IMG/VR virus record: IMGVR_UViG_3300027608_000044
Location: 1-52,022 of that record
Length of the DNA stretch: 52,022 nt
Reading direction: 5' to 3' (one strand)
Origin: a virus
Part shown: positions 103-37,347 of the stretch, piece by piece
Position numbering within the stretch: position 1 is the stretch's first letter
Layout of the letters: every line of letters begins with the position of its first letter
Made by a program: the position numbers and the translations under genes
The notes under the pieces: model-generated
What the model saw: the letters and a program-made list of their open reading frames with translations, nothing else
What the model was told of the DNA's origin: nothing
Databases searched by the model: none

Positions 103-1923
103 ATGGCATATATCATAAACAGATTTAGCGGTCAGCAATTAGTGGTGCTAGAAGATGGCACACTAGATACCTCAACCAGTCTAGGATTGCTTGGCAGAAA
201 CTATACTGGCTATGGTGAAGTACAGAATGAGAATTTTTTGTTTCTGCTTGAAAATTTTGCCAATGAAAATCCGCCGTCTAGACCAATCACAGGACAAACA
301 TGGTATAACACCGATGTTGGCTCACTGAATGTTTATAGTGGTACAGCCTGGACTCCTGTAGGATCTGCTGTTATCAGTGACACTGAACCCGAAGGATTCG
401 ACGGTGGTATTTGGTACAAAGATATCACAGATCAGCTGTTTGTATATGATTCTGGATTTTGGAAATTAATAGGACCAGAAGCCATTGAAGGATTTGGCAC
501 AACCAAAGTTCTAGCCGAAACAATTATAGATAGCAATGGCACTACCCATGCAGCTATCAAGGTGGTGGTAGATGGCACAGTGTTAGCAGTGTGTGTTGAT
601 GATGCTTTTACCATAGATGACACCAACGCTATACCTGGATTTTCAATTCTGCAGGCAGGCACCAATATTTCAACAGCTAGACCAGTCATAGGCTCGCTTG
701 TGGGAAATGCAGAATCTGCTAGTAAATTGAATCCTGGTAGAACCATAAATGGTGTGTATTTCGACGGCCAAACAGACATAACCATAACATCCAACACCAC
801 AAATACATTATCAAAAGGTACCTATCTCACTGGTGCAAATTTTAATGGATCAACAGCTACTACTTGGAGTGTGGATGCCACCTCCAATAATGTCATAGGC
901 AAAATTGTGGCCAGAGACAGTGCTGGCGATTTTTCAGCAGGAACCATCACTGCTAATTTAAATGGTACTGTCTTTGGAAACGTGATCGCCGGATTTGGCG
1001 GAATCAGTACTTTTAACATAGTAGAAGCCAACGAATTCATAGGGGCCACTTTATCCGGCAACGCATTTACAGCTACTAAATTACAAACAGCAAGAACAAT
1101 TAATACAGTACTATTTGATGGCAGCGCAAATATCACAGTACCTGCAGACGGCAACACCTTGACTGGCACACAATTGGCAACCAACATAGTAGATTCCAAT
1201 CTTACAAATGTAGGAACTCTATCTGCTCTAGATGTTGCCGGCACAACTGGCATCACACTCGGAGGACCCAGCACCAGCGTGGCGCCTTTGAGAATATATT
1301 TAGACGCATCTACAATACCAACATTACATTCACGTAATTCTGGAATACGTTTCACAATTCTTGATCCAACGCAACCGTCAAGTACGGCTGCAATTTCTAT
1401 GGTAAATGCAGCCACAGCATTAGCATTAGGGGGGCTCAATGCGCCAGCTATGATTCCAGTAAACACCAATACTACTGATCTAGGAATATCTACTGCAAAA
1501 TGGAACAACGTACACGCTAACTTTTTTGTAGGCACGGCTACTGCTGCAAAATACGCAGATCTTGCAGAAAAATACGTGGCAGATCAAGAATATGAGCCTG
1601 GAACTGTACTTGAATTTGGTGGTGAATTTGAAGTAACTCTAGCAGAAGACGGATCGAATAAGTTAGCTGGTATTGTATCAACAGATCCAGCATATTTAAT
1701 GAACAGCGAATGTAGTGGTAACTATATAGTTGCTATTGCATTGCAAGGTAGAGCACCTTGTAAAGTTAGAGGCAACATACATAAAGGTGACATGCTGATG
1801 AGTGCAGGCGGAGGATATGCTAGAAAAGCAACCAATCCTCAAATAGGTACAATTATAGGCAAAGCACTAACAGATTTTGATGGTACAAGTGGTGTTATAG
1901 AAGTAGCAGTGGGTAGAGTTTAA
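103..1923 (+). CDS. Tail-fibre-like virion protein, paralogue 1
   Basis: A 606-residue structural protein, probably a tail fibre or fibre-associated protein. The N-terminal part has a GYGEVQNENF segment around residues 36-45 and a TGQTWYNT segment followed by GTAWTPVG, the short Trp/Tyr/Gly repeats common in phage fibre shafts. The middle is Thr/Asn/Gly-rich, as in beta-helical fibres. The last ~125 residues (from ATAAKYADLAEKY, then LAGIVSTDP, then GRAPCKVRGNIHKGD) form a separate domain resembling the peptidase-G2-like end domains of other phage fibres. Both terminal regions recur in the next gene (1968-3722), so the two are paralogues. An ACGGAG Shine-Dalgarno lies before the ATG. Whether the end domain self-cleaves cannot be told. 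Confidence 0.75.
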   Translation: MAYIINRFSGQQLVVLEDGTLDTSTSLGLLGRNYTGYGEVQNENFLFLLENFANENPPSRPITGQTWYNTDVGSLNVYSGTAWTPVGSAVISDTEPEGFDGGIWYKDITDQLFVYDSGFWKLIGPEAIEGFGTTKVLAETIIDSNGTTHAAIKVVVDGTVLAVCVDDAFTIDDTNAIPGFSILQAGTNISTARPVIGSLVGNAESASKLNPGRTINGVYFDGQTDITITSNTTNTLSKGTYLTGANFNGSTATTWSVDATSNNVIGKIVARDSAGDFSAGTITANLNGTVFGNVIAGFGGISTFNIVEANEFIGATLSGNAFTATKLQTARTINTVLFDGSANITVPADGNTLTGTQLATNIVDSNLTNVGTLSALDVAGTTGITLGGPSTSVAPLRIYLDASTIPTLHSRNSGIRFTILDPTQPSSTAAISMVNAATALALGGLNAPAMIPVNTNTTDLGISTAKWNNVHANFFVGTATAAKYADLAEKYVADQEYEPGTVLEFGGEFEVTLAEDGSNKLAGIVSTDPAYLMNSECSGNYIVAIALQGRAPCKVRGNIHKGDMLMSAGGGYARKATNPQIGTIIGKALTDFDGTSGVIEVAVGRV

Positions 1924-1937
1924 ATGGGTGTATTTAC

Positions 1938-1945
1938 GATAAATA
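1938..1945 (+). promoter_or_regulatory. T4-late-like promoter box (GATAAATA)
   Basis: GATAAATA matches the T4 late consensus TATAAATA at seven of eight positions. It lies 22 bases before the ATG of the second fibre gene, with an ACGGAG ribosome binding site between. The same octamer recurs before other genes in the window. Confidence 0.5.
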
Positions 1946-1967
1946 ATAGTTACAACGGAGTTGATCA

Positions 1968-3722
1968 ATGGCATATCAAGTAGACAAATTTAATGGAACG
2001 TTCTTAGTCTCTGTCGACGACGGTACCATTGATACCACCACTGATTTGCGTTTTGTAGGTAAGAATTACGCTGGCTACGGCGAAGTACAGAACGAGAATT
2101 TCCTACATTTGCTGGAAAACTTTGCCAATACATCAGCACCTCCAAAAAAAGTAACTGGCCAAATTTGGTATGATAGCGGCCTAAAAAAACTACGATTCTA
2201 TGACGGCACAAAATTTAGAACAGCCAGTGGCGCAGAGATAGGACCTACTCCTCCCAGCGGATTACAGGCTGGAGATTTTTGGTTTGATACCGGAGCAGAA
2301 CAACTGTATGCCTATACTGGCACTGAATTTGTATTAATCGGTCCCGAAACTCTGCCAGATCTGGGTGCATCAGCAGTACAGGCACAGGTAGTCAAAGACA
2401 CTCTCAACAACAATCATTCCATAGTGAAATTTCAATCTGGCGGTGATGTAATATCAATTGTCAGCAAAGATGCATTTACCCTAAACAGCGTCTTAAATCC
2501 TATAACAGGATTTTCAGTGATCAAGAAAGGTGTCAATCTAGTTAACACTAATGGTACAACTGGAGTAACAACCACAGATCATTATTTTTGGGGATCAGCA
2601 AGCAATGCATTAAGACTGGGTGGTTATGCTGCCAGTGAATATGTTAGACTAGGTGAGATATCTTTTACCAATGCAATTGCTTTTGCCGATGCCGGTCTCA
2701 CAGTAGGCGATCAAAATGATTTAAGAATCCGTGTTGAAAACGGTGATGAACCTATTATTGAAAACAGATTAGGCAACACCATAACTTTGAGAATAAGAGT
2801 ATCGGATAGTGATCTTCGAAATGTTGGCATAATAACTCCAACTGGCATGATTCCGGGCTCAGATAATTTCTTCACTTTAGGGTCCACGGTCTCTAAATGG
2901 TCCAACGTGTATTCCACCACATTCACCGGAGCATTAACTGGTAATGTAACCGGAAATACCACAGGTGTACACAAAGGCAACATACTTGCCGACGACAATT
3001 CTGTGGCCTATGCCGCAGTTACAAAAATATTCTCAGGCAGCTTCTCGGGAACACTCACTGGCAACGTGATAGGTTCAGTCACAGGTACATCTACCAATGC
3101 TTTGACTTTGAACAGTCTAGTCGGAGAACTTGGTGCAGTGGCAACTTCTGTGGCTCTGCGAGATAGCAGTGGTAACATCACTGCTACTAGATTTGTTGGA
3201 GTCGTAGATAAATCGGATAGAACTAGAATAAATGATTCAGCAGTAGATACAGATCCCAATTATAGATCAGCCAAGACCACAAAAACAGCCAACACAATTG
3301 CAGCTAGAGATGGTTCGGGAAATCTATTAGCTAATACCTTCGATGGTACTGCAACAGCAGCGCAATATGCAGATCTTGCTGAAAAATATCTAGCAGATAA
3401 AGAATATGAAGTGGGCACAGTAGTCGCGGTAGGCGGAGACAAAGAAGTCACTGCCGCACAGCACGGCGACCGAGCTGTGGGAGTAGTATCAGCCAATCCA
3501 GGATTTATGATGAACAAGGATCTTGAAGGCGGAACGTATATTGCTCTTAAAGGGCGTGTGCCGGTGTATGTCACTGGAGCTGTGAAAAAAGGTCAACGTC
3601 TTGTAGCTGCAAACAACGGCAGTGCTGTAGCAGCCGAATCGCAGGCAACCGATGTGTTTGCTATTGCATTGGAATCAAACACAGACCTAGATCGCAAACT
3701 AGTTGAAGCATTGGTATTATAA
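1968..3722 (+). CDS. Tail-fibre-like virion protein, paralogue 2
   Basis: A 584-residue paralogue of the preceding protein. Shared parts are the N-terminal GYGEVQNENFLHLLENFAN segment, the TGQIWYDS and GDFWFDT repeats with GTEFVLIGPE, and the C-terminal domain starting ATAAQYADLAEKY and continuing VVSANPGFM and LKGRVPVYVTG. The centre is a Gly/Thr/Asn-rich repeat zone containing TGNVTGNTTG and TGNVIGSVTG, typical of a fibrous trimer. Sequence divergence is largest in the centre, consistent with different surface specificities. It is transcribed with the upstream fibre but also has its own late-like box. Confidence 0.75.
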   Translation: MAYQVDKFNGTFLVSVDDGTIDTTTDLRFVGKNYAGYGEVQNENFLHLLENFANTSAPPKKVTGQIWYDSGLKKLRFYDGTKFRTASGAEIGPTPPSGLQAGDFWFDTGAEQLYAYTGTEFVLIGPETLPDLGASAVQAQVVKDTLNNNHSIVKFQSGGDVISIVSKDAFTLNSVLNPITGFSVIKKGVNLVNTNGTTGVTTTDHYFWGSASNALRLGGYAASEYVRLGEISFTNAIAFADAGLTVGDQNDLRIRVENGDEPIIENRLGNTITLRIRVSDSDLRNVGIITPTGMIPGSDNFFTLGSTVSKWSNVYSTTFTGALTGNVTGNTTGVHKGNILADDNSVAYAAVTKIFSGSFSGTLTGNVIGSVTGTSTNALTLNSLVGELGAVATSVALRDSSGNITATRFVGVVDKSDRTRINDSAVDTDPNYRSAKTTKTANTIAARDGSGNLLANTFDGTATAAQYADLAEKYLADKEYEVGTVVAVGGDKEVTAAQHGDRAVGVVSANPGFMMNKDLEGGTYIALKGRVPVYVTGAVKKGQRLVAANNGSAVAAESQATDVFAIALESNTDLDRKLVEALVL

Positions 3723-3731
3723 GGAAAATTT

Positions 3732-4640
3732 ATGGCAATCGGTGATTTTATTTCTGCAACTGATTATAATACAATCAGAACAAAAATATTCAATGTAATG
3801 GCTACAGGAGCTGGTAATTTTGGTTACGGACAAACCACATTCAGTTCTTTGGTGGCAGAAGGAAATTCAGTAACAAAGGCTCAATGGGACGCTTTGAGAT
3901 ATGATATCTACAATGCATTGTTACATCAAACAGGTTCAGCCGCAGCATTGACTACAGTGGCTGTGGGTGATGTGATAAGATATGGAGCCAGTCAACCTAA
4001 TTTTCAATACAACACCTTTGCAGATACAGCAACTACAAATAGATTTGATCTAGGTACCGGCCAATTTGTCACAGAGGCCATTGACAGCAAAACATTCACA
4101 TCTTCTTGGGCAAATTCTTTAACTGCTACTGCCACTATTACATTCTCCACAGCTGAACAGGCAAGATTTTTCTTTAACGCTGGCGGAAAGATTCGATTCG
4201 CTAGTTCAAGAACCGGCGGCAACGGTGAAGCACAAAACACATCTTGGAGCAATCTTCTCAGCGGCGCAGGTACACAGGCATTCGCTGGTGGATTAGTCGG
4301 TATTAATTTCTTTTCACTCACCAACTCTTATCAAACATTTTATACTACAATCGGTAGTGCGGCTTATTCTGCCAATCAGTGGAGACTTGAGGCTTTATGC
4401 AATGTCAGTAATAATACCACAGGAACGGCCAATTCAATAACATTTCGAGTAACTTGGACAGATAACTACACAGATTCAGGAGCAGGCGGTTCACCAAATC
4501 CTCCTCCAGGCGACCTAGTGGATGGCACACTTACACTTACTGTTGACCAGGTGCGTCCGTCTGGATTCCTGCAACCCAGCGGCACCTTTACTATCATCGC
4601 ACCGAGCACCACATCAGTCAGCGCAATTTCCGGTTCATAA
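3732..4640 (+). CDS. Putative virion structural protein downstream of the fibres
   Basis: A 302-residue protein starting nine bases after the second fibre gene, with AAGGAA before the ATG. The N-terminal ~70 residues (ISATDYNTIRTKI, TKAQWDALRYDIYNAL) look alpha-helical. The rest is Thr/Ser/Asn-rich beta, including GGKIRFASSRTGG, and a Pro/Gly stretch (GGSPNPPPGD) precedes the last ~40 residues, which resemble an Ig-like or fibre-tip strand pattern. Position and composition suggest a tail-fibre or decoration protein; no catalytic motif was seen. I do not recognise a named T4 counterpart. Confidence 0.6.
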   Translation: MAIGDFISATDYNTIRTKIFNVMATGAGNFGYGQTTFSSLVAEGNSVTKAQWDALRYDIYNALLHQTGSAAALTTVAVGDVIRYGASQPNFQYNTFADTATTNRFDLGTGQFVTEAIDSKTFTSSWANSLTATATITFSTAEQARFFFNAGGKIRFASSRTGGNGEAQNTSWSNLLSGAGTQAFAGGLVGINFFSLTNSYQTFYTTIGSAAYSANQWRLEALCNVSNNTTGTANSITFRVTWTDNYTDSGAGGSPNPPPGDLVDGTLTLTVDQVRPSGFLQPSGTFTIIAPSTTSVSAISGS

Positions 4641-4664
4641 TTTTTAATCTCCTTTAAACCATCA

Positions 4665-4672
4665 CATAAATA
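4665..4672 (+). promoter_or_regulatory. T4-late-like promoter box (CATAAATA)
   Basis: CATAAATA lies 26 bases before the ATG at 4698, with TAGGAG between as ribosome binding site. It sits in the only noncoding gap (4641-4697) of the plus-strand cluster and would start a unit containing the glycosyltransferase-like genes. Confidence 0.5.
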
Positions 4673-4697
4673 ATGTGCGTGTTTAATAGGAGATACC

Positions 4698-5048
4698 ATG
4701 GACGAACGTCTAAAAGCTGCTCTTGATTTTTCTAATTATAGACAAACCCTAGCAATCCAACGAAAAACTCTTAGAGAGAAAATCGAAGGTAAATTAACCT
4801 ACGGCCATTCCGGCGGAATTTTTAAAATTGACAGGTCTCTGTTGGTATTTGTTCAAATGCTAATTGATCAAGGTCGAACAGAAAATGTTCCTTTAATTGA
4901 TCAAAATGAAAATCCAATACTCATAGCTAACTTAGAAGAATTTCGAGATGAAATTTTAGATAGATATTTTTCCTCAACCTATGAGTATCATGAAGAATAT
5001 CAAAAAATAAAATCCAGTAGAACTGTAGAAAAATTGCTAAGCCTATGA
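4698..5048 (+). CDS. Conserved-looking protein of unknown function
   Basis: A 116-residue mostly helical soluble protein, not recognised. Visible features are a charged N-terminus, a central hydrophobic segment (LLVFVQMLIDQG) and an Asp/Glu/Tyr-rich C-terminus. It has a clear AGGAG ribosome binding site and its stop overlaps the start of the next glycosyltransferase-like gene (ATGA), so it heads a translationally coupled run. It may serve the glycosyltransferases or the fibres; this is position-based inference. Confidence 0.6.
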   Translation: MDERLKAALDFSNYRQTLAIQRKTLREKIEGKLTYGHSGGIFKIDRSLLVFVQMLIDQGRTENVPLIDQNENPILIANLEEFRDEILDRYFSSTYEYHEEYQKIKSSRTVEKLLSL

Positions 5049-5905
5049 CTAGAGGAATATTGATTTTTGCTCATAATGGTCCTGAAGTTGACTACGGTAC
5101 TATGAGTATAATTGCGGGAGGCCTAGCAAAGAAACATCTAGGTCTACCTGTAAGTTTGATCACAGACAAGTGGACAGTTGGCTGGCTTAAAGAATCTAAT
5201 ATGTATGAGACGGCCGTAACAGTTTTTGATAAAATTATTGAAATTGAAAAGCCTCGAACAAAAAATACAAGAAAACTACATGACGGATTTTACAGCCAAA
5301 CTGTACCCTTTGTTAACTCAAATAGATTTTCAGTTTGGGATATTAGTCCGTATGATCAAACCCTGTTAATTGACAGCGACTATTTGATTTTTTCTAATCG
5401 ATTAAATGAATATTGGAGTGTAGATAGTAGTGTAATGTTGGGACATTCTATGAATGATATTACTGGCGATCGTAGCGGTGTACTAGATCAGCGAGTAAGC
5501 GAAACAGGAGTACATATGTTTTGGGCAACCACAGTGATGTTTACCAAGAATGAAGAAAGCCGTTTCTTTTTTAAACTAGTGGATTTTATCAAAGATAACT
5601 ATGTCTATTACGCTGATTTGTTTAGATTCAATTCTAAACAATACCGGAATGATATTGCATTTAGTATTGCCAAACATATTATGAATGGGTTTGAAACTGA
5701 ATTTGTTTACACATTGCCTCCTATATTAACTGTGTTTGATAAAGATATCTTACAATCAGTAAACAATACAACACTAACTTTCTTAATTGATAAACCTCTT
5801 AATTGCGGCGAGTTCTTAGCCGCTACCACAACCGGTCTAGATGTGCATGTTATGAATAAACAAAGTATTATGAGACATAAAGAAAAATTACTGGAGTTAA
5901 TATGA
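5045..5905 (+). CDS. Glycosyltransferase-like protein (GT-A type, DxD motif)
   Basis: A 286-residue protein resembling nucleotide-diphospho-sugar transferases. The N-terminus (GILIFAHNGPEVDYG) is the first beta strand of a GT-A fold, and LLIDSDYLIF near residue 110 holds a DSD motif of the type that binds a metal and the sugar nucleotide. It shares its general plan with the next gene, which has DAD in the same place. Its start overlaps the upstream stop as ATGA, as does its own stop with the next start. Glycosylation of fibres, host surface or DNA are all possible; the fibre genes next door favour a virion or surface substrate. Confidence 0.6.
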   Translation: MTRGILIFAHNGPEVDYGTMSIIAGGLAKKHLGLPVSLITDKWTVGWLKESNMYETAVTVFDKIIEIEKPRTKNTRKLHDGFYSQTVPFVNSNRFSVWDISPYDQTLLIDSDYLIFSNRLNEYWSVDSSVMLGHSMNDITGDRSGVLDQRVSETGVHMFWATTVMFTKNEESRFFFKLVDFIKDNYVYYADLFRFNSKQYRNDIAFSIAKHIMNGFETEFVYTLPPILTVFDKDILQSVNNTTLTFLIDKPLNCGEFLAATTTGLDVHVMNKQSIMRHKEKLLELI

Positions 5906-6744
5906 ACTTTGGTTATTTGATTGTAGTTTCAACAAATGCAGAAATAGATTATCTTAAGTTGGCATATGCACTGGCACTGAGTATCAAAAATACACAACAA
6001 CCTGGATACGATCAAGTAGCATTAGTAATTGATGATTTAGAATCAGTTAACAGCTTAAAAAGTCCTTGGGTATTTGATCATGTTATTCATTGGGATAAAG
6101 AAACACATTGGGACGGTCGAAGCTATATGGATCAGTTAAGTCCGTTTGACAGCACTGTCTGCCTTGATGCAGATATGTTATTTTTAAGAGATCATAGTCA
6201 TTGGATTGATTACTTCGTTGAAAATTGTGAATTATATATTCCTTCAAAGGCATTTACCTATAGAGGAGAAGTGATTACCAACGACTATTATCGTAAAACA
6301 TTTACAAAAAATAATCTTCCTAATTTGTATTCTATGTTTACATTTTTTAAGAAAGATTCTGCACTTGCAGAAGAATTTTTTAATCTAGGTAGATATATTA
6401 TAAAAAATCCTATAGAATTTAGCAATTTATATTTGAATAAATTAAAACCAAAAGTCGTTGGCACCGATGAGGCCTTTGCGTTAAGTGCTAAAATTTTAGA
6501 TATTGATAGCGAAATCAGTTACGACTTAGAGTTCCCAAATATTGTACATATGAAACCTATGGTACAAAATTGGCCGTGGAGTGCAGACAAAGTAACTGAA
6601 CATGCAGGCTTTTATTTTACCACCTCCGGAAATTTAAAAATTGGAAATTATCAACAGCATAGTATAGTACATTATGTTGAGAAAGATTTAATGAACGACG
6701 AAATTGTCAGCATGTTAGAGGAGATTGCATGGGACAAGAACTAA
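5902..6744 (+). CDS. Glycosyltransferase-like protein (GT8-like, DAD motif)
   Basis: A 280-residue putative GT-A glycosyltransferase. ALALSIKNTQQ near residue 25 is like the family 8 nucleotide-binding start, and VCLDADMLFL around residue 90 carries the DxD metal site. Later segments (VGTDEAFALSAKIL, IVHMKPM) resemble the acceptor-side helices and a His-containing end motif. It is probably a paralogue of the preceding gene and is coupled to it by ATGA. The sugar and acceptor cannot be read from sequence. Confidence 0.6.
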   Translation: MNFGYLIVVSTNAEIDYLKLAYALALSIKNTQQPGYDQVALVIDDLESVNSLKSPWVFDHVIHWDKETHWDGRSYMDQLSPFDSTVCLDADMLFLRDHSHWIDYFVENCELYIPSKAFTYRGEVITNDYYRKTFTKNNLPNLYSMFTFFKKDSALAEEFFNLGRYIIKNPIEFSNLYLNKLKPKVVGTDEAFALSAKILDIDSEISYDLEFPNIVHMKPMVQNWPWSADKVTEHAGFYFTTSGNLKIGNYQQHSIVHYVEKDLMNDEIVSMLEEIAWDKN

Positions 6745-7322
6745 TGGACTTTGATGAATGGATTAATTTACCGGCCAATCAAACAATCGAATATTATGCG
6801 ACATTTAAAGAAGATGGCTCTTTATTAGGAGTCTATCCTTCTCATGCTATCGGTGATGTTCAAAATAAAATAAAAATTGATGAAGATATAGCAATAGCAA
6901 TTTCTAACGGAGTTGAAAATTTATTTTCTTATAAAGTTGACATTCCAACTCAAAAACTTCTTAAGATAAACAGATTTGCAATGCACAATTTAATAAAAAT
7001 TGATGATGTGCTACACAGAATTATAGATAAAAAATGGTCAAATATTAATGATCCTGATATCATTGTGAATTACAGCAGGGATGATAATTTATTAAATTTT
7101 TCTATGAGTTCACAATATTCCAAAAATATTATATGGGATGGTGATACTGCAATGATTTTTTTAATAACAGAATACAACGATCCTAATGCATTAATCGAAA
7201 TGATTAGCATCAGAGTAGGTGACATTACAGAAAATACAAAATCTTTTCAGCTAACACTACCTAACAAATTTAGTGTTTATACACGAAGAATTTTTGACAA
7301 ATATGTATTTGAGACAAAATGA
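6729..7322 (+). CDS. Unknown protein between glycosyltransferase-like genes
   Basis: A 197-residue acidic, beta-rich protein with no recognised motif. Two starts are possible: 6729, which has AGAGGAG at good spacing but overlaps the previous gene by 16 bases, and 6744, which overlaps the previous stop as TAATG but has a weak ribosome binding site. The first is preferred. The stop overlaps the next start (ATGA). The first residues (DFDEWINLPANQTIEYYATFKEDGSLLGVYP) suggest a small phage accessory domain; function unknown. Confidence 0.6.
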   Translation: MGQELMDFDEWINLPANQTIEYYATFKEDGSLLGVYPSHAIGDVQNKIKIDEDIAIAISNGVENLFSYKVDIPTQKLLKINRFAMHNLIKIDDVLHRIIDKKWSNINDPDIIVNYSRDDNLLNFSMSSQYSKNIIWDGDTAMIFLITEYNDPNALIEMISIRVGDITENTKSFQLTLPNKFSVYTRRIFDKYVFETK

Positions 7323-8212
7323 AAACAGTAGAATTTGATATTATCTTTTTAAGCTATGATGAGCCCAATGCAGAAGAACACTATGCAGACCTATGCAATA
7401 AGGCACCGTGGGCAAAACGGGTACACGGAGTTAAAGGTAGTGACGCTGCACACAAAGCCGCCGCAGAATTAAGTGAAACAGAATGGTTTGTTACAGTAGA
7501 CGCTGACAACATAGTCAACATTAAATTTTTTGATTACGAGGTTGACACTACACAGTCTAAAATAAAAACATTTAGTTGGGTTGGAAGAAATAAACTTAAT
7601 GGATTAAAATATGGCAACGGCGGATTGAAGCTTTGGAGAAAAGACTTTGTGCTAGACATGAAAAGTCATGAAGCCAGCGATAATGATCGTGCTCAGGTAG
7701 ATTTTTGCTGGGAAGACGGTTACCAGCAATTTCCTGAATGCTTCAGTGATACTGTTATCACAGGCAGTCCCTTTCAAGCATGGCGAGCAGGGTTCCGTGA
7801 AGGTGTTAAAATGACCCTGCATGACGGAGTTCGAGTGCCGCCTTTAGAAATTAAAGAGAGAGTATGGTGGCATAATATTCATAGACTGCGTATGTGGTCA
7901 ACTGTTGGTACACATGAAGAAAACGGAATCTATGCTGTTCTTGGTGCCCGCATGGGAACATGGATGACTAACTGTACTGATTGGAATTATGTAGATGTTC
8001 GAGACTTTGAATTATTAAAAGCTATCTACGAAGAAAAAGTCAATCATACATTTGTAGAACAAGATGCACAGGATTACGGAACAAAAATTAATCAGCAACT
8101 AGGATTAGACTGGCCTTGGTTAGATGCTCGCCACAGTAAATACACACTAGACCTATACGAAGAAACTGTTAACCTTGGATTAACCTATTATCGGAATATT
8201 GTGCATGTATGA
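7319..8212 (+). CDS. Glycosyltransferase-like protein with DAD motif, tandem copy A
   Basis: A 297-residue protein. FDIIFLSYDEPNAEEHY opens the fold, RVHGVKG follows near residue 35 and WFVTVDADN near residue 60 gives a DxD-type metal site. NGLKYGNGGLKLW and SPFQAWRAGFRE are shared with the next gene. This looks like a phage family of GT-A-like enzymes, but no biochemical role is known to me. The DxD site is retained, so activity is plausible. Both ends overlap neighbouring genes. Confidence 0.6.
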   Translation: MKTVEFDIIFLSYDEPNAEEHYADLCNKAPWAKRVHGVKGSDAAHKAAAELSETEWFVTVDADNIVNIKFFDYEVDTTQSKIKTFSWVGRNKLNGLKYGNGGLKLWRKDFVLDMKSHEASDNDRAQVDFCWEDGYQQFPECFSDTVITGSPFQAWRAGFREGVKMTLHDGVRVPPLEIKERVWWHNIHRLRMWSTVGTHEENGIYAVLGARMGTWMTNCTDWNYVDVRDFELLKAIYEEKVNHTFVEQDAQDYGTKINQQLGLDWPWLDARHSKYTLDLYEETVNLGLTYYRNIVHV

Positions 8213-9254
8213 CATTATTTTTTTAGGAGATGACGATGCCAAATGGGATAAATTCAAAAAAGAATATCCTGCATCTCATCGTGTGCGTAAGATAACAACA
8301 TGGACTGATTTAAAAAAAATAGCATTTACCAATCATTTTTGGATTATATGGGATAATATAGAATTTATATCCGGATACAATCTAAATGATTATCGTGTAT
8401 CAAAATGGGAAGAACAATACACTCATATTTTTCGCAACGGAAAATATTATGATGGTGTAGCATTAGTTTCTAAAAAACATTTTCCGTCTAATAGAGAATT
8501 TAATCATAGATTCTTTGTGCATAAGAAAGAGATAGATGTTACACTATCTAATCCTAAACCGTTTGATATTATCTTTATTAGCTATCAAGAACCTACAGCT
8601 GATGAAAACTATCAAACACTGTTAGAAAGATTTCCTAGAGCAAAACGTGTACACGGAGTTAAAGGAATTCATCAAGCACACATCGAAGCAGCAAAACTAT
8701 CAACCACTGATATGTTTTGGGTAGTTGATGCTGATGCTGTTGTAGAACCTACATTTAATTTCGAAGTAGATCAATTTCCTGAGCATGACACATATACTAA
8801 ATCAATTGTGCGAGTATGGCGGAGTCGAAACCCTATTAACGGATTAAGATACGGCTATGGCGGTATCAAACTATTACCTAAGAACTTAACTATCAATATG
8901 GATCTATCGAAGCCGGATATGACTACATCTATAAGTCCGTCCTTTACCGCTATGCAAGAAGTAAGTAATATTACCTGTATCAACACGGATCCATTTACTG
9001 CTTGGAAATCAGCATTTAGAGAATGTGTAAAATTATCAAGTAAAACAATTACAGGCCAGGTTGATAGAGAAACAGAATATCGATTATCAGTGTGGTGCTC
9101 TACAGGTGCAGATAAGCAATACGGTGAATATGCAATTAAAGGGGCGATTGCCGGAAAAGAATTTGGGACAATTAATAAAGATAATGTTGATCAACTACAA
9201 TTAATTAATGATTTTGATTGGCTGCTAACACAATTTCAATCTTCTTTGCCGTAA
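8205..9254 (+). CDS. Glycosyltransferase-like protein, tandem copy B with extra N-terminal domain
   Basis: A 349-residue protein. Residues ~115-349 are paralogous to the preceding gene: FDIIFISYQEPTADENY, RVHGVKG, WVVDADAVV (DAD), NGLRYGYGGIKL and DPFTAWKSAFRE. The first ~110 residues (YDIIFLGDDDAKWDKF, FWIIWDNIEF) look like a second, degenerate half-copy of the same fold, with the DxD site changed to WDN. I chose the ATG at 8205; an upstream in-frame TTG at 8199 is less likely. The 3' end overlaps the convergent radical SAM gene by 19 bases. Confidence 0.6.
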   Translation: MYDIIFLGDDDAKWDKFKKEYPASHRVRKITTWTDLKKIAFTNHFWIIWDNIEFISGYNLNDYRVSKWEEQYTHIFRNGKYYDGVALVSKKHFPSNREFNHRFFVHKKEIDVTLSNPKPFDIIFISYQEPTADENYQTLLERFPRAKRVHGVKGIHQAHIEAAKLSTTDMFWVVDADAVVEPTFNFEVDQFPEHDTYTKSIVRVWRSRNPINGLRYGYGGIKLLPKNLTINMDLSKPDMTTSISPSFTAMQEVSNITCINTDPFTAWKSAFRECVKLSSKTITGQVDRETEYRLSVWCSTGADKQYGEYAIKGAIAGKEFGTINKDNVDQLQLINDFDWLLTQFQSSLP

Positions 9255-10492
9255 AATTTTCTCCAGTTTCTTTTATTGGGCCTAGTATTTCCTTTATGCG
9301 TCCATATACGATCAATTTGACTATCTTCTCCGCAGGTACTAGAGCAATACATAATTTTATTATTGTCTTTTTCACTCCACGAATCTGCAAATACTCTATT
9401 TAAATGTCCAGCATCGAGTATTTCTTCTAATGTGTGGTTGTGTAAATTAAACTTATCGTGTCCGTAGTCTTTTACTTTTCTTTTTAATTGAACAATTTCA
9501 GGAGTTGAATGTGTGGTTTCTATAGTAGTGCCAACATAGCAGCATGGTCTAACTATGCCTGACGAGCTAACATATATTTCTTTACCACCACCCCAGGTCT
9601 TAGATTTACATTTTATATTTTTTTTATTGTAATCATCGAAGTCAATTACAGCTTCTTTAAATGTTTTTCCGTCATAGTTTTCTATTAATTCTTCATGGGG
9701 ATCAACAACTTCTCGTTTGTAAAATTTAACAATAGTTGAATTTACATCTATTTGCCATTCTATAATATCGGAACTGTTGGTTGAATTTCTATTGGCCAAT
9801 TCAACTGGTGGTTCTAACCAGTACAGTAAATTTCCTTCGCCGTCTAATACAGTACGCTTCACTAACGACCCGTCAACGTCAAACCCAAGAGCTTTCTTTG
9901 GCGCAAAGTTATAAAACCCAATATCTTTTGAAAACTGTGTTGCTTCGGCAATTTGATGTTCGTTGTGTTTAAAAATTAAATAGTCCCATTCGGCTCTTCC
10001 ACCATGGTCTATATAAGCCTTTACATTTCTAATCAACGTGGTCCAATTAACGTTTCTTCTGTACAAATGATTAGTATCTTCTAACCCGTCAATGGAAAAA
10101 ATAATTCGTAGTCTATGATCGTGAGCCTTAGAAATTTCACCTAATCGACTCCAGTCCTTAACTCCTCTCATCCCGCCGTTGGTGTTAACAGTTACATTTA
10201 ATTTTGGGTTGATGTTAAAAAGATAATCAACGATCGACACAAAATCCTTTGCCATACCAGGATCTCCCACAGTACCACAAAATAACCAGTGATTGGTTCT
10301 ATTAATAATGGCAGGAGAAAACCATTTTTTAAATTGTTCAAGAGAAATTTGCGCTAGTTCGAGATCAGGCCTTACAATTTCCGATCCTTCGTAGTACCTT
10401 GGGCATAGTGGACAGGCAGCATTGCAATAACTTGACAATTCACAATGTATTTGAAATAGTTCCTCTTTAACCCAAAAATTATTTGTTGTCAT
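9236..10492 (-). CDS. Radical SAM protein with SPASM-like C-terminus
   Basis: A 418-residue radical SAM enzyme. Cys23, Cys27 and Cys30 (CNAACPLC) form the CxxxCxxC site for the 4Fe-4S cluster that cleaves S-adenosylmethionine. GTVGDPGM takes the place of the usual GGEP motif, and VTVNTNGG follows as in the family barrel. A C-terminal Cys group (KCKSKTWGGG, GIVRPCCYVG, MYCSSTCG) is SPASM-like and would bind auxiliary clusters, as in peptide- or protein-modifying members. It is the last gene of a four-gene radical SAM run, overlapping the previous gene by 14 bases. Substrate unknown. Confidence 0.85.
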   Translation of the reverse strand: MTTNNFWVKEELFQIHCELSSYCNAACPLCPRYYEGSEIVRPDLELAQISLEQFKKWFSPAIINRTNHWLFCGTVGDPGMAKDFVSIVDYLFNINPKLNVTVNTNGGMRGVKDWSRLGEISKAHDHRLRIIFSIDGLEDTNHLYRRNVNWTTLIRNVKAYIDHGGRAEWDYLIFKHNEHQIAEATQFSKDIGFYNFAPKKALGFDVDGSLVKRTVLDGEGNLLYWLEPPVELANRNSTNSSDIIEWQIDVNSTIVKFYKREVVDPHEELIENYDGKTFKEAVIDFDDYNKKNIKCKSKTWGGGKEIYVSSSGIVRPCCYVGTTIETTHSTPEIVQLKRKVKDYGHDKFNLHNHTLEEILDAGHLNRVFADSWSEKDNNKIMYCSSTCGEDSQIDRIWTHKGNTRPNKRNWRKFYGKED

Positions 10493-11663
10493 AATTCTTT
10501 ATTAAATCTCCAAACTCTTTAAATGTTGTATAGTAGTCTTCTTTTCTATAGGCATCGTGTACGGCAATTTCTTTTGTAAAGTTGTCCCAACGCCATTGTT
10601 CGAATGTGCCGTCCTTTACAAATTGTATGATTCCTGGCAGTTGATGCCATATTGATTCATAAGACTTATCGATTGTTTCCAATTTTTTGCAAATTTCTTT
10701 TTTGATAGAATCTGGAAATATTTGACTACAGTAATAATCTGGATAGTGAACTAGATTCAAATACACATTCCAATCCTTCTGGAAAAAGTCAACTACTTCG
10801 GGAATATAATAAACATTCAACGCACTTATAGTATGGCATACATCAAAGTATAGATTGGGCCGATCTTTAGACCATTCCTTGGCCTTGAGCATGTTGGCAT
10901 AGACTTCGTCCCATTTTGCAGGGTGCCTCATAAACTCAAATCTTTCGCCTAGTCCGTCAATGCTAAATCCTATGTTAACAAACTTAAAATTTTCTAACAA
11001 CGGTAATAATTCTTCTGGCCATTGTGTTCCGTTAGTGTTATAGTGTAGGCTCATATTCTTGGCCCAACCATTCTTAACACATGTTCTTATAAATTCCCAT
11101 TGTTGTTTAATCAACCATGGTTCACCGCCGTAGAAATCTACCACAATGATTCCTTCGGCAATCTTTTCTAAATTGGCCCATAGCGGACTTTCTTTTTCCC
11201 AGCTATTGTTATACCCTTTTGAATCTATCAAGAACTGTTTATAGGTAGTTTTTTCTTTGTCAACTTTGGTGTCATAGTATTCTTTAACCCATTGACTACT
11301 GCTGTAGGGATGACAAGTGCGACACTTGATATTGCAAGTATTGCCCATGTTAAGCTCTAAGGTCTTAATACCGTCGCCTTCCTTAAAATCAAACTTTCGA
11401 TTGTCTCGAATACGTTTGCTATCTCTCCCGGCATCTTCTTCGTTCCAACATTTAGAACAAGCAGGATGTCTTTTGCCCTGTCGAAAATATTCACGCACTT
11501 CTTGCATCCACGGTTCTACCCACAAATCTTCTAGATTGTTATCTAAAACTCTACCCTTACTACTGCCGTTGATCATACAGCAGTGTTTTATAGTTCCTGT
11601 AGAATTAACACTTAAATTATGAGATGCATTTACGCAATAAAACTCATTTTCCATAATTCTCAT
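10479..11663 (-). CDS. Radical SAM protein with twitch-like N-terminus (short form)
   Basis: A 394-residue enzyme. The cluster motif is CNIKCRTC at Cys110, Cys114 and Cys117, followed by FYGGEPW (GGEP motif) and YNTNGT. Ahead of the core lies a Cys-containing region (Cys10, Cys28-Cys29, Cys69 and Cys72 in the pattern CSKCWN) that resembles half a SPASM domain, i.e. a twitch domain, but placed N-terminally. FSIDGLG is the usual late barrel strand. Overlapping starts exist at 11663 and 11654; the second lacks the overlap with a close ribosome site. Probably the same family as the next two genes upstream; substrate unknown. Confidence 0.82.
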   Translation of the reverse strand: MRIMENEFYCVNASHNLSVNSTGTIKHCCMINGSSKGRVLDNNLEDLWVEPWMQEVREYFRQGKRHPACSKCWNEEDAGRDSKRIRDNRKFDFKEGDGIKTLELNMGNTCNIKCRTCHPYSSSQWVKEYYDTKVDKEKTTYKQFLIDSKGYNNSWEKESPLWANLEKIAEGIIVVDFYGGEPWLIKQQWEFIRTCVKNGWAKNMSLHYNTNGTQWPEELLPLLENFKFVNIGFSIDGLGERFEFMRHPAKWDEVYANMLKAKEWSKDRPNLYFDVCHTISALNVYYIPEVVDFFQKDWNVYLNLVHYPDYYCSQIFPDSIKKEICKKLETIDKSYESIWHQLPGIIQFVKDGTFEQWRWDNFTKEIAVHDAYRKEDYYTTFKEFGDLIKNYDNK

Positions 11664-13035
11664 ATTCCTGTTTGCATAGTGCCATGAATTCTAAATACTC
11701 CGGGAATAAAGAATAAAAGTCAGTATTGTTTCTTTTATCGGTTTCGTTAAAAAATACATAAAAATCTCTGCGACCTTTTTTAATTTTTTCTGGATCGACT
11801 GGATTTTGTTTCATGTAGTCAACTACTCGTTTAAACACTTCGTATTCAATTTCATTGAAACCTATTTGACTATCTGGAGTAATGAAATTATCCTTGATAA
11901 ATTGCAAGTTGTCGTCCATGTACTTGTTAAATTCGTTGGTTAAAATGTTTATCATCCAATGCGCAGGCTCTTTCAAATAAGGAGTATCAAATTGAACACG
12001 CTGATGCCACGGTTTGCCAGGGTAGTCTTTTCTCAGCTGTAATATTTTATCTAACAAAGTTTTAAAATTAGCAACTGTTAGTACATTAAATGTAATCATA
12101 AAACTAATATCTTGCCCTGGCAAATTATCTAGATAATATCGTAAATTCTTTTCCCACAATACAACATCTAACCCAGTTCTAATGTACTCAGCTTGAGGAC
12201 CCCACGTATCAATACTGGTGTATAATTTAAATCCTTTAATTGCTTTCTTATCAAGTAATCGCTGCACATACTCGACCATTTTTTGGACCAGTCTATGTGT
12301 AATACCTAGATTGCTGTTAACATGAATTTGTAATTCCGGTTCTGGCTCGTTCTCTAACATCTCTAGTAGTTTAAATGTGTTAGGGTTCATTAATGGTTCG
12401 CCACCAGTGATACGGAATACTTTTAGATCTTTCTTAAGTGTAGGCCACCATTCCCAAAATGCATCAACATAGGGGTTGGGATCATCTTTGTTAAAGAAGT
12501 CGCTATTATCTAAGAAGTCTATGCCGTATTGATTGTAGGTTAAATCATAATTGCCATGACGCTTAATTTCTTCCATCCAACTACTTGATGCCTGTGGGCA
12601 GCAATACCCACATCTAAAATTACAGCCATTTCCAAAGCTGACTTCTAGATGCCGCGGATTCCAATCAGCTTCCCATCCTGCCTCTACAATAGTATCAAGA
12701 GTACCCGGGTGATTAGAACTATGTTTCATGCGATCACTAATATGATTGCCTTCTAGGTCTTCGATATTCCAGCAGTAATAACATTCTTCGGGCCGCTTGC
12801 CCTCAAGCATCTGCTTGCGTACTTCTTTCTTCCACGGTGTATTATGCAATGCACTAGGATTGGCTTTTAATAATGTCTTATCCACTTTGTGTGGACGAGG
12901 GTGATAGCAACTATGATTGTCTCCCATGTGGAGATATAATGTTTCCATATTCCATTTTGCTAAACAAAATCCTTTGCCTACGGTGTTTAATTTATCGCGA
13001 GTTTCGTGAATAATTTCTATGTATTTTTTTGTCAT
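11644..13035 (-). CDS. Radical SAM protein with twitch-like N-terminus (middle form)
   Basis: A 463-residue radical SAM enzyme. CNFRCGYC (Cys138, Cys142, Cys145) is the SAM cluster motif, RITGGEPLMNP the GGEP motif, and LYTSIDTWG a later barrel strand. The N-terminal region has Cys24, Cys43, Cys85 and Cys88, the last two in ECYYCWNIED, a candidate auxiliary-cluster site. ALHNTPWKKEVRKQMLEGKR is nearly shared with the 546-residue paralogue upstream, so the pair arose by duplication. It is coupled to both neighbours by short overlaps (4 bases upstream). Not queuosine-like; a protein or peptide substrate is the family precedent. Confidence 0.85.
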   Translation of the reverse strand: MTKKYIEIIHETRDKLNTVGKGFCLAKWNMETLYLHMGDNHSCYHPRPHKVDKTLLKANPSALHNTPWKKEVRKQMLEGKRPEECYYCWNIEDLEGNHISDRMKHSSNHPGTLDTIVEAGWEADWNPRHLEVSFGNGCNFRCGYCCPQASSSWMEEIKRHGNYDLTYNQYGIDFLDNSDFFNKDDPNPYVDAFWEWWPTLKKDLKVFRITGGEPLMNPNTFKLLEMLENEPEPELQIHVNSNLGITHRLVQKMVEYVQRLLDKKAIKGFKLYTSIDTWGPQAEYIRTGLDVVLWEKNLRYYLDNLPGQDISFMITFNVLTVANFKTLLDKILQLRKDYPGKPWHQRVQFDTPYLKEPAHWMINILTNEFNKYMDDNLQFIKDNFITPDSQIGFNEIEYEVFKRVVDYMKQNPVDPEKIKKGRRDFYVFFNETDKRNNTDFYSLFPEYLEFMALCKQEYENYGK

Positions 13036-14672
13036 TTTATGTTCTCGTACCAGTATTTAAGTTCAGGAAAAGTAGAAACAAAATCAGTTCCTCGTCTGCG
13101 ATCATGCTCTTGAAAAAACTGTTTAAAATCTTTTGCATTTTTTAACAGGTCTGCGCTATTGCATTTATTATTTTCTATTACGTCTATATTTCTTTCTAAT
13201 TTTTCTACTTCGTAAGATTTAAATCCCTGCGAAGTATTGTTATATGATTCTCGGCTATTGTTATTCTTCATCCAATCAAGAGTGTGTTTGAGTATATCAA
13301 GTTGTTCCTCTGAACAATTAAACACACTCATCCAATCGGGTTTTCTTAATAGAGGAATGTCAAACCATATACGTTGAAACGATGCTTTACCTTTAATTTT
13401 TTGAGAATATTTTTTTCGAAGATCTAAAATCATTTCAAGGTATTCTTTTAATTGGTATATGCTGAGAACATTGAACGTATTAATAAAACTAACACTGGTA
13501 TTTTCTGTTTCGGATAAGAATCTTTCTACGTTGTTTTGCAATTTTTTAAAATCTAATCCATTTCTGATATATTCAGCCTGTGCACCAACGCTGTCTAAAC
13601 TAACATATAAACTGAAATGCTTACATGCATGATCTTGATATTTGTACAAATAGGTAAAACTTCCATTCTCATTTGCTGGTCCAATGCCGTTAAATGTTTC
13701 TGGTATATCCTCTCTTTCAATGCTAGGCAGATCTGTTTTATGGTAAAGTTTATTTTGTTTGCCTATTACAAAGTGAGGCCAACTTTGCCATTCTGATCCG
13801 TCTTTGGGATCAGGAGTATAACACTCTACAACATGGTCTACCTTATCTAAGGTTTTAATTTTTTCTAAAAATTTATCGAACAAGTCTCCTGGAGGACACA
13901 TGTTGCTGGTTACACTTAATTCTAAATTTTTATTAGGATGTTCTTTTACATAATCCAAAATCTTAAAAGTATTTGCATCCATTAACGGCTCGCCACCGGT
14001 CATCCTAAAAACTTTCAATGTGGTATACAACGATGGCCACCATTGCCAAAATGCTTGAACGTATGGATTATCTTTGCTTGACGCAACCAACGGCATTAGT
14101 CTAGCATCTCTTAATGTTTTTATTTGATTATGCTCGTAATCATCGATAACATATGGACCATGTGTTTCTATTTCTTTTTCCCACTCACTGCTAAGATGAG
14201 GACTGCAATAACTACATTTAAAATTGCAAGTTTGATTAAAATTAACCTCTACATAAGTGGGATCTATATTTGAATCTGATGGCAGATCTTGTATAGATGA
14301 TAGTTTATCTATTGCCCAATGCTCGCTGCTGCGATAATATCGATCACTAATATGTCCAGAGTCTTCAATTTTCCAACAATATTCGCAGCCAGCAGGTCTC
14401 TTACCGTCCAGCATCAATTGCCTTTCGTGAAATTTTTGTTTAGTATTATGGAGGGCAGAAGGATTAGTTAATAACTCTTCTGCATTTATATCGTGTGTTG
14501 GGGGATGATAACAACTATGAGTCTTTCCATTAGTTAAATGTAAACTAACCTGCAACCATTTAGCAGCACAGAATGTGGGACTGATATCGTCTATTGTTTG
14601 TTTAGACGAGTCAAAGCCTTTAACATAAAAATTAATTGCTTTAGTTTCCACATTCTTATTTAAAAAAGTCAT
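13032..14672 (-). CDS. Radical SAM protein with twitch-like N-terminus (long form)
   Basis: A 546-residue paralogue of the 463-residue enzyme. Cys149, Cys153 and Cys156 (CNFKCSYC) form the SAM cluster site; FRMTGGEPLMD is the GGEP motif; LYVSLDSVG is a late barrel strand. N-terminal Cys35, Cys54, Cys96 and Cys99 (GCEYCWKIED) match the paralogue. About 80 extra residues lie between the GGEP motif and the late strand, around residues 265-350, and may be a substrate-specific insert. Its start lies inside the end of the 102-residue gene upstream. Function unknown. Confidence 0.85.
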   Translation of the reverse strand: MTFLNKNVETKAINFYVKGFDSSKQTIDDISPTFCAAKWLQVSLHLTNGKTHSCYHPPTHDINAEELLTNPSALHNTKQKFHERQLMLDGKRPAGCEYCWKIEDSGHISDRYYRSSEHWAIDKLSSIQDLPSDSNIDPTYVEVNFNQTCNFKCSYCSPHLSSEWEKEIETHGPYVIDDYEHNQIKTLRDARLMPLVASSKDNPYVQAFWQWWPSLYTTLKVFRMTGGEPLMDANTFKILDYVKEHPNKNLELSVTSNMCPPGDLFDKFLEKIKTLDKVDHVVECYTPDPKDGSEWQSWPHFVIGKQNKLYHKTDLPSIEREDIPETFNGIGPANENGSFTYLYKYQDHACKHFSLYVSLDSVGAQAEYIRNGLDFKKLQNNVERFLSETENTSVSFINTFNVLSIYQLKEYLEMILDLRKKYSQKIKGKASFQRIWFDIPLLRKPDWMSVFNCSEEQLDILKHTLDWMKNNNSRESYNNTSQGFKSYEVEKLERNIDVIENNKCNSADLLKNAKDFKQFFQEHDRRRGTDFVSTFPELKYWYENIK

Positions 14673-18536: not shown

Positions 18537-18973
18537 AGGTTATTTTTTCTAACAGAATTAATATCAATAACGCCAGTGTTAACAGCGCCGCCAAAGTCGC
18601 CATCGACTACTACATTAGCACAAAGTTCACGGAACCAGCGATCGACAATTTCTTCATCTTTGTCGCCATCAAATCCGTATCCTTCTTGTTTTAATTTTAA
18701 CACAAACTGCTCGTTCCAGTCAAGCTCAAAAAAGCCGTTGCGAATATTATCTTTATTGACATGAGTGTTAAGTACACCTACCCAAGGTTCCTTTAGTTTA
18801 GTTGCACGATCTTTTGGTGATAGTTTAGCAGTTTCTTCTGCTTCTATAGCACGTTCTGCAGACGCAACGGCGTCTTTGGCAATTTTTGTGGATTCTTCAG
18901 CTAATTTTACTGCGGCCTCAGTTTCTGCTTTGAGCTTATCAATACCAAATAATTTTTCTATAAAACGCTTCAT
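18533..18973 (-). CDS. Coiled-coil protein of unknown function
   Basis: A 146-residue protein starting at ATG 18973, which overlaps the queE stop as TAATG; an upstream ATG at 18985 would extend into queE. Residues 1-60 are Ala/Glu/Lys-rich coiled coil (FGIDKLKAETEAAVKLAEES), then PWVGVLNTHVNKDNIRNGFFELDWNEQFV and a C-terminal domain ending NTGVIDINSVRKNNL. Small T4-like phage proteins of this shape are common; no role is known to me. Confidence 0.6.
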   Translation of the reverse strand: MKRFIEKLFGIDKLKAETEAAVKLAEESTKIAKDAVASAERAIEAEETAKLSPKDRATKLKEPWVGVLNTHVNKDNIRNGFFELDWNEQFVLKLKQEGYGFDGDKDEEIVDRWFRELCANVVVDGDFGGAVNTGVIDINSVRKNNL

Positions 18974-19827
18974 TAGGTCCCCCATTCATTCTTAAACAAC
19001 GGCACCTGCAATCGATCACTATATCGTAGACCTGCGTTCATTGCCATAATAGCTACTGCTCTGTTATTTAGAGCGTAGACACTTTCAACGCCGCCTACTG
19101 GCATTAGATAAACGTGTCCTTTAAATCCTGCCTTACGATATGCAGCAATAGCACACTCGGCATCAGCAAAGTCTTGTTCAGTAGCAATAACAAATTTTAA
19201 ATAGGCTGTGCCAACTTCTTCATACTCACAAACTACCTCTGGAAGAATAGCTTCTTCCCACTTCTCACCACTGCATGGCAGTTTAGCACTTACTGAAAAT
19301 GTAAGTTCTTTGCCTACTTCGCTATTCCACTTTCTCAAATATTCTTTAAATTCAGGTGTTAACTTTTGAGTACCATTGGTCTCGAATGTGATTTCCTTCA
19401 ACGCTTTCATTTTAGAATTATTCAGTAAGTCTGGATAAGCACGTTGCCACCCTAACAACGGTTCACCGCCTGTAATTACTAGATGCTCATCCTGCCATTC
19501 ATTGTGCGGAATAATTTCCATAATACGATCTGTAATTGCTTCACTTGTAAGCATAGGCGACAAATCTTTAAAGTCTGGATGCCAACTTGCATAGCTATCA
19601 CAACCTGTGCTAACTAACGGCAAGTCTTCATACTTTGTAAAAGGCGTAATCATTTTATGTGTAGCCGCAATGTCAGTTGCTTCGTGACTCATTTCGCCAC
19701 GAGGCATGCCAAAGCCTGCACACTTAAAGTTACAACCAAATGTACGTAAGAACACAGAAGGCACACCCATATAGCGTCCTTCACCTTGTATGCTGTAAAA
19801 CAGCTCTGCGATTTTAATTTTACTCAT
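18973..19827 (-). CDS. queE: QueE-like 7-carboxy-7-deazaguanine synthase
   Basis: A 284-residue radical SAM enzyme that converts 6-carboxy-tetrahydropterin to 7-carboxy-7-deazaguanine on the way to preQ0. FYSIQGEGRYMGVPSVFLRTFGCNFKC is the QueE opening; VITGGEPLLGW is the GGEP motif. The cluster cysteines are spread unusually: Cys32 and Cys36 in GCNFKCAGFG, and a third candidate Cys76 in STGCDSYASW, about 40 residues on. That spread differs from the classical compact motif. The start has no Shine-Dalgarno but a strong promoter five bases upstream. It works with FolE, the QueD-like protein and the DpdA-like enzyme in this window. Confidence 0.88.
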   Translation of the reverse strand: MSKIKIAELFYSIQGEGRYMGVPSVFLRTFGCNFKCAGFGMPRGEMSHEATDIAATHKMITPFTKYEDLPLVSTGCDSYASWHPDFKDLSPMLTSEAITDRIMEIIPHNEWQDEHLVITGGEPLLGWQRAYPDLLNNSKMKALKEITFETNGTQKLTPEFKEYLRKWNSEVGKELTFSVSAKLPCSGEKWEEAILPEVVCEYEEVGTAYLKFVIATEQDFADAECAIAAYRKAGFKGHVYLMPVGGVESVYALNNRAVAIMAMNAGLRYSDRLQVPLFKNEWGT

Positions 19828-36946: not shown

Positions 36947-37024
36947 TCACACTGGTGAATAGGGATTTCTATAACGGTCGTAGCCATCGTCTTCTGGGTA
37001 CACTGGATACTGATTAGGGTTCAT
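36947..37024 (-). CDS. Possible 25-residue peptide coupled to iscA
   Basis: ATG at 37024 overlaps the iscA stop as ATGA and TGA lies at 36949-36947. The peptide is Asn/Pro/Tyr/Asp-rich ([19 protein letters not shown]). It fills the only gap here. Such a short reading frame could be chance, but the ATGA overlap follows the rule of its neighbours. Confidence 0.4.
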
Positions 37025-37347
37025 ACTGAAAAACTGCTCCCGCAGCCGCATGTTGATTGTGCATTGGGATTAGTGATAACAAACTGACTGCCCATTACTT
37101 CTTCTTTGTAATCAATAACAGCACCTTGTAGGTATTGCATACTCATTGCATCCACTAACACATTATATTGTTCGTTGATAGGAAATTCAAAATCATCTTC
37201 ATTCTTTTCCTCGTCAAAGGTAAAGCCATAGCTAAAGCCACTGCATCCGCCACCTTGTACAAAGGTACGTAGTGCCAGTTTTGGATTATTTTCTTCTAGC
37301 AGCAAATCCATAATCTTTGATTTCGCTGATTCTGTTATCTCAACCAT
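37021..37347 (-). CDS. iscA: A-type iron-sulfur carrier (IscA/HesB-like)
   Basis: A 108-residue HesB/IscA protein which binds Fe-S clusters and passes them to apo-proteins. The three Cys ligands are visible: [11 protein letters not shown] near residue 35 and [11 protein letters not shown] at the C-terminus (two Cys). The N-terminus [19 protein letters not shown] is standard. An AGGAAA site precedes the ATG. It may support the many phage Fe-S enzymes here (five radical SAM proteins). A few cyanophage-like genomes carry such a gene. Confidence 0.85.

Follow-up and report, generated by a model that had tools for sequence, protein, structure and literature searches.

Radical S-adenosylmethionine (SAM) genes have already been encountered in environmental phages. 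One study reported a T4-like environmental genome that encodes an A-type carrier together with 12 radical-SAM genes (PMC5332604), and pelagimyophages possess a host-recognition cluster, lying in a hypervariable region, in which tail fibres, GT8 glycosyltransferases and radical-SAM cassettes occur (PMC7029224). Here, we describe four consecutive radical-SAM genes, R1 to R4 (9236-14672, minus strand), in an uncultivated phage represented by the 52,022-nucleotide IMG/VR record IMGVR_UViG_3300027608_000044, the whole of which (positions 1 to 52,022) is referred to as the window. The phage is T4-like, as indicated by its T4-type replication genes, including a DNA polymerase (phrog_262, E 3e-197) and a clamp loader (phrog_168, E 4e-78). 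R1-R4 belong to a conserved unit of tail-fibre genes, glycosyltransferase genes and an ordered radical-SAM array, and we favour, with a probability of roughly 0.45, the reading that this unit is a cytoplasmic module glycosylating and radically modifying a tail fibre or adhesin.

The context of R1-R4 emerges from the gene neighbourhoods of related phages. A scan of IMG/VR with R4 gave at least 598 confirmed relatives, and gene families and their order were defined by clustering the genes of 80 related loci plus the window. Most of the 80 loci share the order FIB (tail fibre), p302, s116, GTb, GTb, u197 or c9, GTa and radical-SAM array, so the neighbourhood analysis in related phages that the earlier note on this DNA had proposed reveals a fixed arrangement. 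Of the R4-centred loci, 50 extend at least 9 kb upstream; s116, GTa and GTb are all present in 48 of these, and FIB and p302 in 47. L048, one of the two exceptions, is truncated as a contig and shares the inverted layout of the window; in the other, the 184 kb record L030, the array is separate and s116 lies elsewhere, and the fibre cassette there has its own radical-SAM gene right after GTa. The linkage is reciprocal: of the loci spanning at least 15 kb, all of those centred on GTa (23/23) and nearly all of those centred on s116 (33/34) contain radical-SAM genes. It also persists among R4 relatives whose identity is as low as about 35-40%. The enzyme genes are coupled to the fibre genes, s116 and GTb overlapping or lying no more than 10 bp apart in 61/61 cases. 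By a crude hydropathy test, no member of the fibre, p302, s116, glycosyltransferase, u197 or c9 families has a predicted membrane segment.

In some relatives, genes for a SAM synthetase, UDP-glucose/GDP-mannose dehydrogenase, phosphomannomutase and a 2-oxoglutarate-Fe(II) oxygenase-like protein are found inside or beside the arrays, and the variable array genes include SGNH-like proteins, assigned by inspection of their sequences. The SAM synthetase gene of L010 lies within the array (12371-13519, plus strand) and has all three Pfam domains, which suggests a high SAM demand. A carbamoyltransferase gene follows the array at a fixed place in 32 loci (e.g. L076, 18638-20119, plus strand), as does the family c12 in 24 loci.

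The radical-SAM genes themselves are intact and overlap successively by 14, 20 and 4 bp. All four match PF04055, as expected from the earlier note's claim of four coupled radical-SAM genes. R2 (10479-11663), R3 (11644-13035) and R4 (13032-14672) carry a twitch domain before the core and are covered end to end by NF033640 (N_Twi_rSAM), at 300, 307 and 319 bits, respectively, for a cut-off of 170 bits. The assignment by profile thus bears out their description as three twitch-before-core paralogues, and it removes the label ‘unusual’, this architecture being already catalogued as NF033640. Their supposedly common motifs are shared in part: the CxxCW...ED region is found in all three, while ‘(K/N)IED’ and ALHNT are restricted to R3 and R4, R2 carrying CSKCWNEED and no ALHNT. 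R1 (9236-10492; PF04055, 33 bits) falls outside NF033640, which it matches at 41 bits in the core region only. In R1, the core is followed by a five-cysteine SPASM/twitch-like region, and its SPASM-like C-terminus stands on these cysteines, the PF13186 match being sub-threshold (18.1 versus 21.5 bits).

The motif cysteines, whose conservation in homologues had been proposed as a check, are practically invariant. In R1, the core residues C23/C27/C30 and the C-terminal C295, C317, C318, C383 and C387 are retained in 45/45 non-redundant sequences. In the R2-R4 family (R3 numbering), the twitch cysteines C24/C43/C85/C88 are kept in 345-348 of 349 sequences and those of the CxxxCxxC core motif, C138/C142/C145, in 348 of 349. 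Comparison with L007, a 97% identical relative, gives a dN of 0.009-0.013 and a dS of 0.23-0.31 for R1-R4, and therefore purifying selection; the resulting dN/dS of about 0.03-0.06 for each gene rules out a reading of R1-R4 as decaying genes.

The number of radical-SAM genes per locus varies from 1 to 9 in the 80 loci and the window, some arrays being cut by the end of the locus, and a 174 kb contig (G017) has twelve NF033640 genes over the cut-off in a row (54497-70076), with an R1-like match after them. The 14 control genomes contain no gene over this cut-off. In a tree of 214 radical-SAM proteins, the sequences cluster according to their place in the array. Position 1 forms two clades, with supports of 83 (the clade holding the R4 of the window, which is thereby placed in the position 1 class) and 100, position 2 forms two with supports of 99 and 47, and positions 3, 4 and last are supported at 97, 98 and 100. 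Judging from this tree, the array members are old, distinct paralogues held in order, as expected if each performs a task of its own. Recent tandem duplication was rejected as the source of the arrays, because positions 1, 3, 4 and last, and one of the two position 2 clades, are separately supported.

In the window, positions 103 to 9254 of the plus strand are occupied by these cassette families. FIB1 (103-1923; best named match in the PHROG tail-fibre families, E 7e-16) and FIB2 (1968-3722; PHROG tail fibre, E 4e-17) are tail fibre proteins of one family. The gene conserved directly after FIB encodes p302 (3732-4640), a fibre-like protein of Ser/Thr-rich composition (family medians of 28% Ser plus Thr and 10% charged residues) and a candidate substrate, for which a sequence search found no Pfam or PDB match. 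It is followed by s116 (4698-5048), a small protein modelled by AlphaFold2 (AF2; pLDDT 90) as two long helices around a small sheet. In a Foldseek search of BFVD, its fold resembles DUF4376 proteins (E 8e-3 and weaker), the best match being an uncharacterised phage protein (E 1.5e-6), and on the strength of the model s116 is a possible fibre-related helper, perhaps a fibre chaperone.

GTb1 (5045-5905) and GTb2 (5902-6744), members of one family, are glycogenin-like, GT8-type glycosyltransferases. A profile search identifies glycogenin as their closest solved relative (E 7e-6), and the aspartates of the DxD motif, D89 and D91, occur in at least 90% of the alignment. Glycogenin glycosylates a protein, namely itself. 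The conserved linker gene u197 (6729-7322) occupies the same slot in 24 loci and the small family c9 does so in 30 others. GTa1 (7319-8212) has an invariant DxDN motif (D61, D63 and N64), from which motif only the label of glycosyltransferase is taken, GTa having no PDB or Pfam sequence match and no named relative; PDB sequence searches with GTa, s116 and p302 gave nothing usable. Gene clustering across loci places GTa2 (8199-9254) in the same family. At 351 amino acids it is shorter than in many sister phages (about 560-760), and the ends of GTa2 and of the inverted R1 overlap; GTa2 may have lost its C-terminal part at the inversion.

In the sister loci L159, L184, L310 and L318, GTa, R4, R3, R2 and R1 continue on the same strand. 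The window and the relatives nearest to it, L006, L007, L008 and L015, have R4-R1 inverted as a block, and in the window the fibre cassette and the radical-SAM genes are convergent. Because of this inversion, the array looked like part of an operon with u102 and u214. These two genes lie beyond R1 on the other strand in the sister contigs that reach that far (L159, L310 and L318); they belong to another conserved block, adjoin R4 through the inversion alone and were rejected as partners of the array. The context that matters for R1-R4 is the fibre and glycosyltransferase cassette of the plus strand, and not the minus-strand operon upstream of them. No inverted repeats framing 9236-14672 were found, so an invertible, phase-variable block was rejected, and the inversion is read as lineage-specific. 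The T4 late promoter TATAAATA has one match in the window, with 4.2 expected by chance, and is uninformative on the timing of expression.

If the unit matures tail fibres, the phage would produce one or more FIB proteins and p302 along with the small helper s116. Soluble glycosyltransferases, two of them glycogenin-like and one or two of the GTa type, would add sugars to the fibre or to p302 in the cytoplasm, and the ordered radical-SAM enzymes would then oxidise, epimerise, deoxygenate or cross-link the sugar or the protein backbone, each using a 5′-deoxyadenosyl radical together with the auxiliary cluster of its twitch or SPASM domain. An A-type (IscA/ErpA) Fe-S carrier is indeed encoded in the same phage, outside the module (37021-37347, minus strand; PF01521, E 2e-18), in agreement with the earlier note, and may help to load the clusters. 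For the phage, the likely benefit would be an adhesin whose surface is chemically unusual and can be diversified, and which determines host binding or withstands the enzymes of the host. The gene content and its conservation, the reciprocal linkage, the array orthology, the intact cluster ligands and the purifying selection are computational results; FIB or p302 as substrate, glycosylation as the first step and the benefit are inferences. Fibre maturation is supported by the conserved order and coupling of the genes, the lack of membrane segments, the Ser/Thr content of p302 and the relation of GTb to glycogenin. It also draws support from the SAM synthetase, UDP-glucose/GDP-mannose dehydrogenase, phosphomannomutase and carbamoyltransferase genes in or near the arrays of some relatives. 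Between 3732 and 16088, a region of 12.4 kb, 57 bases lie outside predicted open reading frames, which leaves no room for a separate precursor; the earlier note had likewise seen no obvious precursor peptide. A more specific version, which we consider less likely than not, is an assembly line of 4 to 12 old, distinct radical-SAM enzymes that, acting in order and alongside three glycosyltransferases, would leave a radical-made modification of glycan or backbone on the tail-fibre protein of the phage itself.

Several observations weigh against fibre maturation. None of 50,697 phage records matches R3, GTa or s116, so that no cultured phage among those searched carries them; R1 has one weak match there, in Pelagibacter phage Mosig. 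The modification of the fibre is a prediction, and a richness in Ser/Thr is common among tail fibres that carry no glycosylation. Carbamoyltransferase, GDP-mannose dehydrogenase and GT8-type enzymes would suit a surface polysaccharide equally. In the window, the radical-SAM block lies on the opposite strand and therefore does not form one transcript with the fibre genes. The loci were picked by similarity and are interrelated, and the locus counts are accordingly not independent trials.

The radical-SAM family also extends beyond phages. Its cellular relatives, of 32-48% identity in a scan of 84,980 species genomes, come mainly from Bdellovibrionales and Bacteriovoracales bins. Most of the Bdellovibrionota N_Twi radical-SAM genes (L088, L089, L090, L093 and L095) are solitary or few and have no fibre gene nearby, a further point against fibre maturation; L088 carries eight radical-SAM relatives, and an integrase lies close by in L089. 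The earlier note had named as refuting evidence an occurrence of such genes alone in unrelated contexts with a known non-protein substrate; solitary relatives do exist, though no substrate is known for them. The neighbourhoods of the solitary bacterial copies share no common partner except one block in two related bacteria, which does not indicate a substrate. The fibre cassette and the array were seen together on phage-like contigs only. The contig L092, assigned to a Neomarinimicrobiota bin, contains the cassette itself, with p302, s116, two GTb genes, GTa and radical SAM; it is probably of phage origin and misbinned. R1-type genes are also present on two records without s116 anywhere, L355 and L360 (244 kb); R1 can therefore work apart from the fibre cassette, which also counts against fibre maturation.

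The structure of R3 leaves the nature of the substrate wide. Its AF2 model is confident (pLDDT 94), and the nearest solved folds are SuiB, CteB, BlsE, MoaA, QueE, viperin, NifB and AprD4, with TM-scores never exceeding 0.55 by either length. These neighbours mix peptide, sugar and nucleotide enzymes and do not decide between such substrates. The earlier note's generalization that such enzymes usually modify peptides or proteins is therefore half right, since the related folds include enzymes acting on sugars and nucleotides (BlsE, AprD4 and MoaA) and the neighbouring genes encode glycan enzymes.

The main and nearest rival, which we regard as rather unlikely, is the remodelling of host-surface glycans. 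Acting in the cytoplasm during infection, the module would alter lipopolysaccharide core or capsule precursors, so that other phages are kept out or released virions do not become bound to debris. The adjacency to fibre genes would then mean that both lie in the host-recognition region, as in pelagimyophages, for whose GT8 genes, found there alongside radical-SAM cassettes, the authors propose O-chain modification (PMC7029224). The carbamoyltransferase, GDP-mannose dehydrogenase, phosphomannomutase and SGNH-like genes of related arrays would fit such chemistry, as would the presence of the sugar-acting BlsE and AprD4 among the folds near R3. A surface-glycan pathway is, however, at odds with the absence from the conserved cassette of a flippase, polymerase, lipid-carrier transferase or other membrane protein, and with the coupling of the glycosyltransferase genes to fibre genes, the expression of which would normally be late.

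Less probable still is small-molecule or nucleotide chemistry, directed at a cofactor, a hypermodified DNA base or a nucleotide sugar, the proximity to fibre genes being an accident of genome architecture. In its fold, R3 is as similar to MoaA, viperin and QueE as it is to peptide maturases, and solitary bacterial copies exist, yet the near-obligate linkage to FIB, p302, s116 and glycosyltransferases would be unexpected for a DNA-modification or cofactor pathway. A QueE-like gene nearby (18973-19827, minus strand) would also fit, but it sits in a conserved block other than the fibre/radical-SAM cassette. The earlier note had counted it as QueE and as a fifth radical-SAM gene; the gene is there, with a weak PF04055 match and scores under the NCBIfam QueE cut-offs. 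The cluster motif of its product is split, C32-x3-C36 being followed by 39 residues before the third cysteine, C76 (in GCDSYASW). This split is kept in the relatives L008, L048, L060 and L310, and the protein matches 169 phage records.

Least probable of all, and very doubtful, is a pathway like those of ribosomally synthesized and post-translationally modified peptides, in which the enzymes would mature a small peptide, secreted or carried by the virion: the best fold matches of R3, SuiB and CteB, are SPASM-domain peptide cyclases, and a weak NCBIfam similarity to several peptide maturases is seen, but the 12.4 kb region holds no precursor, no conserved small gene is specific to the array across the 80 loci, u102, next to R4 in the window, lies on the opposite strand and faces away in sisters with the other array orientation, and no RRE peptide-recognition domain is evident in the R3 or s116 models (the two cassette proteins modelled), the long helices of s116 around a small sheet not being an RRE.

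A fibre-maturing assembly line, if true, would be the first of its class among the modifications of virion proteins. Within IMG/VR, the cassette is found repeatedly on phage contigs, in at least about 600 stretches in each of two scans, which points to an unstudied but common step in the making or the use of host-recognition proteins by environmental phages. The ordered paralogues, up to 12 in one set, would be a rich source of new enzyme chemistry, for which the linked fibre genes offer a concrete candidate substrate. The conserved unit of fibre, glycosyltransferase and radical-SAM array appears to be new to the literature: no description of a fixed unit of this kind or of ordered paralogues was found, although subscription papers lay outside the search and absence is not proven.

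Compared with known systems, R2, R3 and R4 are alike in belonging to NF033640, far over the cut-off across their full length, and R1 is not a member; the description of that family names no function and includes neither tandem arrays, ordered classes nor a fibre/glycosyltransferase cassette. SuiB and CteB, the best structural matches, resemble R3 in having a radical-SAM core and auxiliary clusters, at TM-scores below 0.5, but in R2-R4 the auxiliary domain precedes the core, and neither a precursor peptide nor, in the R3 and s116 models, an RRE was found. BlsE and AprD4, enzymes of sugar-containing substrates, are among the ten best fold matches of R3 and differ from it in domain order, with 12-13% identity and TM-scores below 0.5. 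The phages of PMC5332604 combine an A-type carrier with up to 12 radical-SAM genes, a combination that the window shares; in the passages available, that study counts Fe-S genes and proposes Fe-S metabolism, and describes neither a tail-fibre/glycosyltransferase cassette nor an array order. Whereas the pelagimyophage cluster (PMC7029224) is described as hypervariable, the cassette presented here is characterized by a fixed gene order and reciprocal linkage in many phages.

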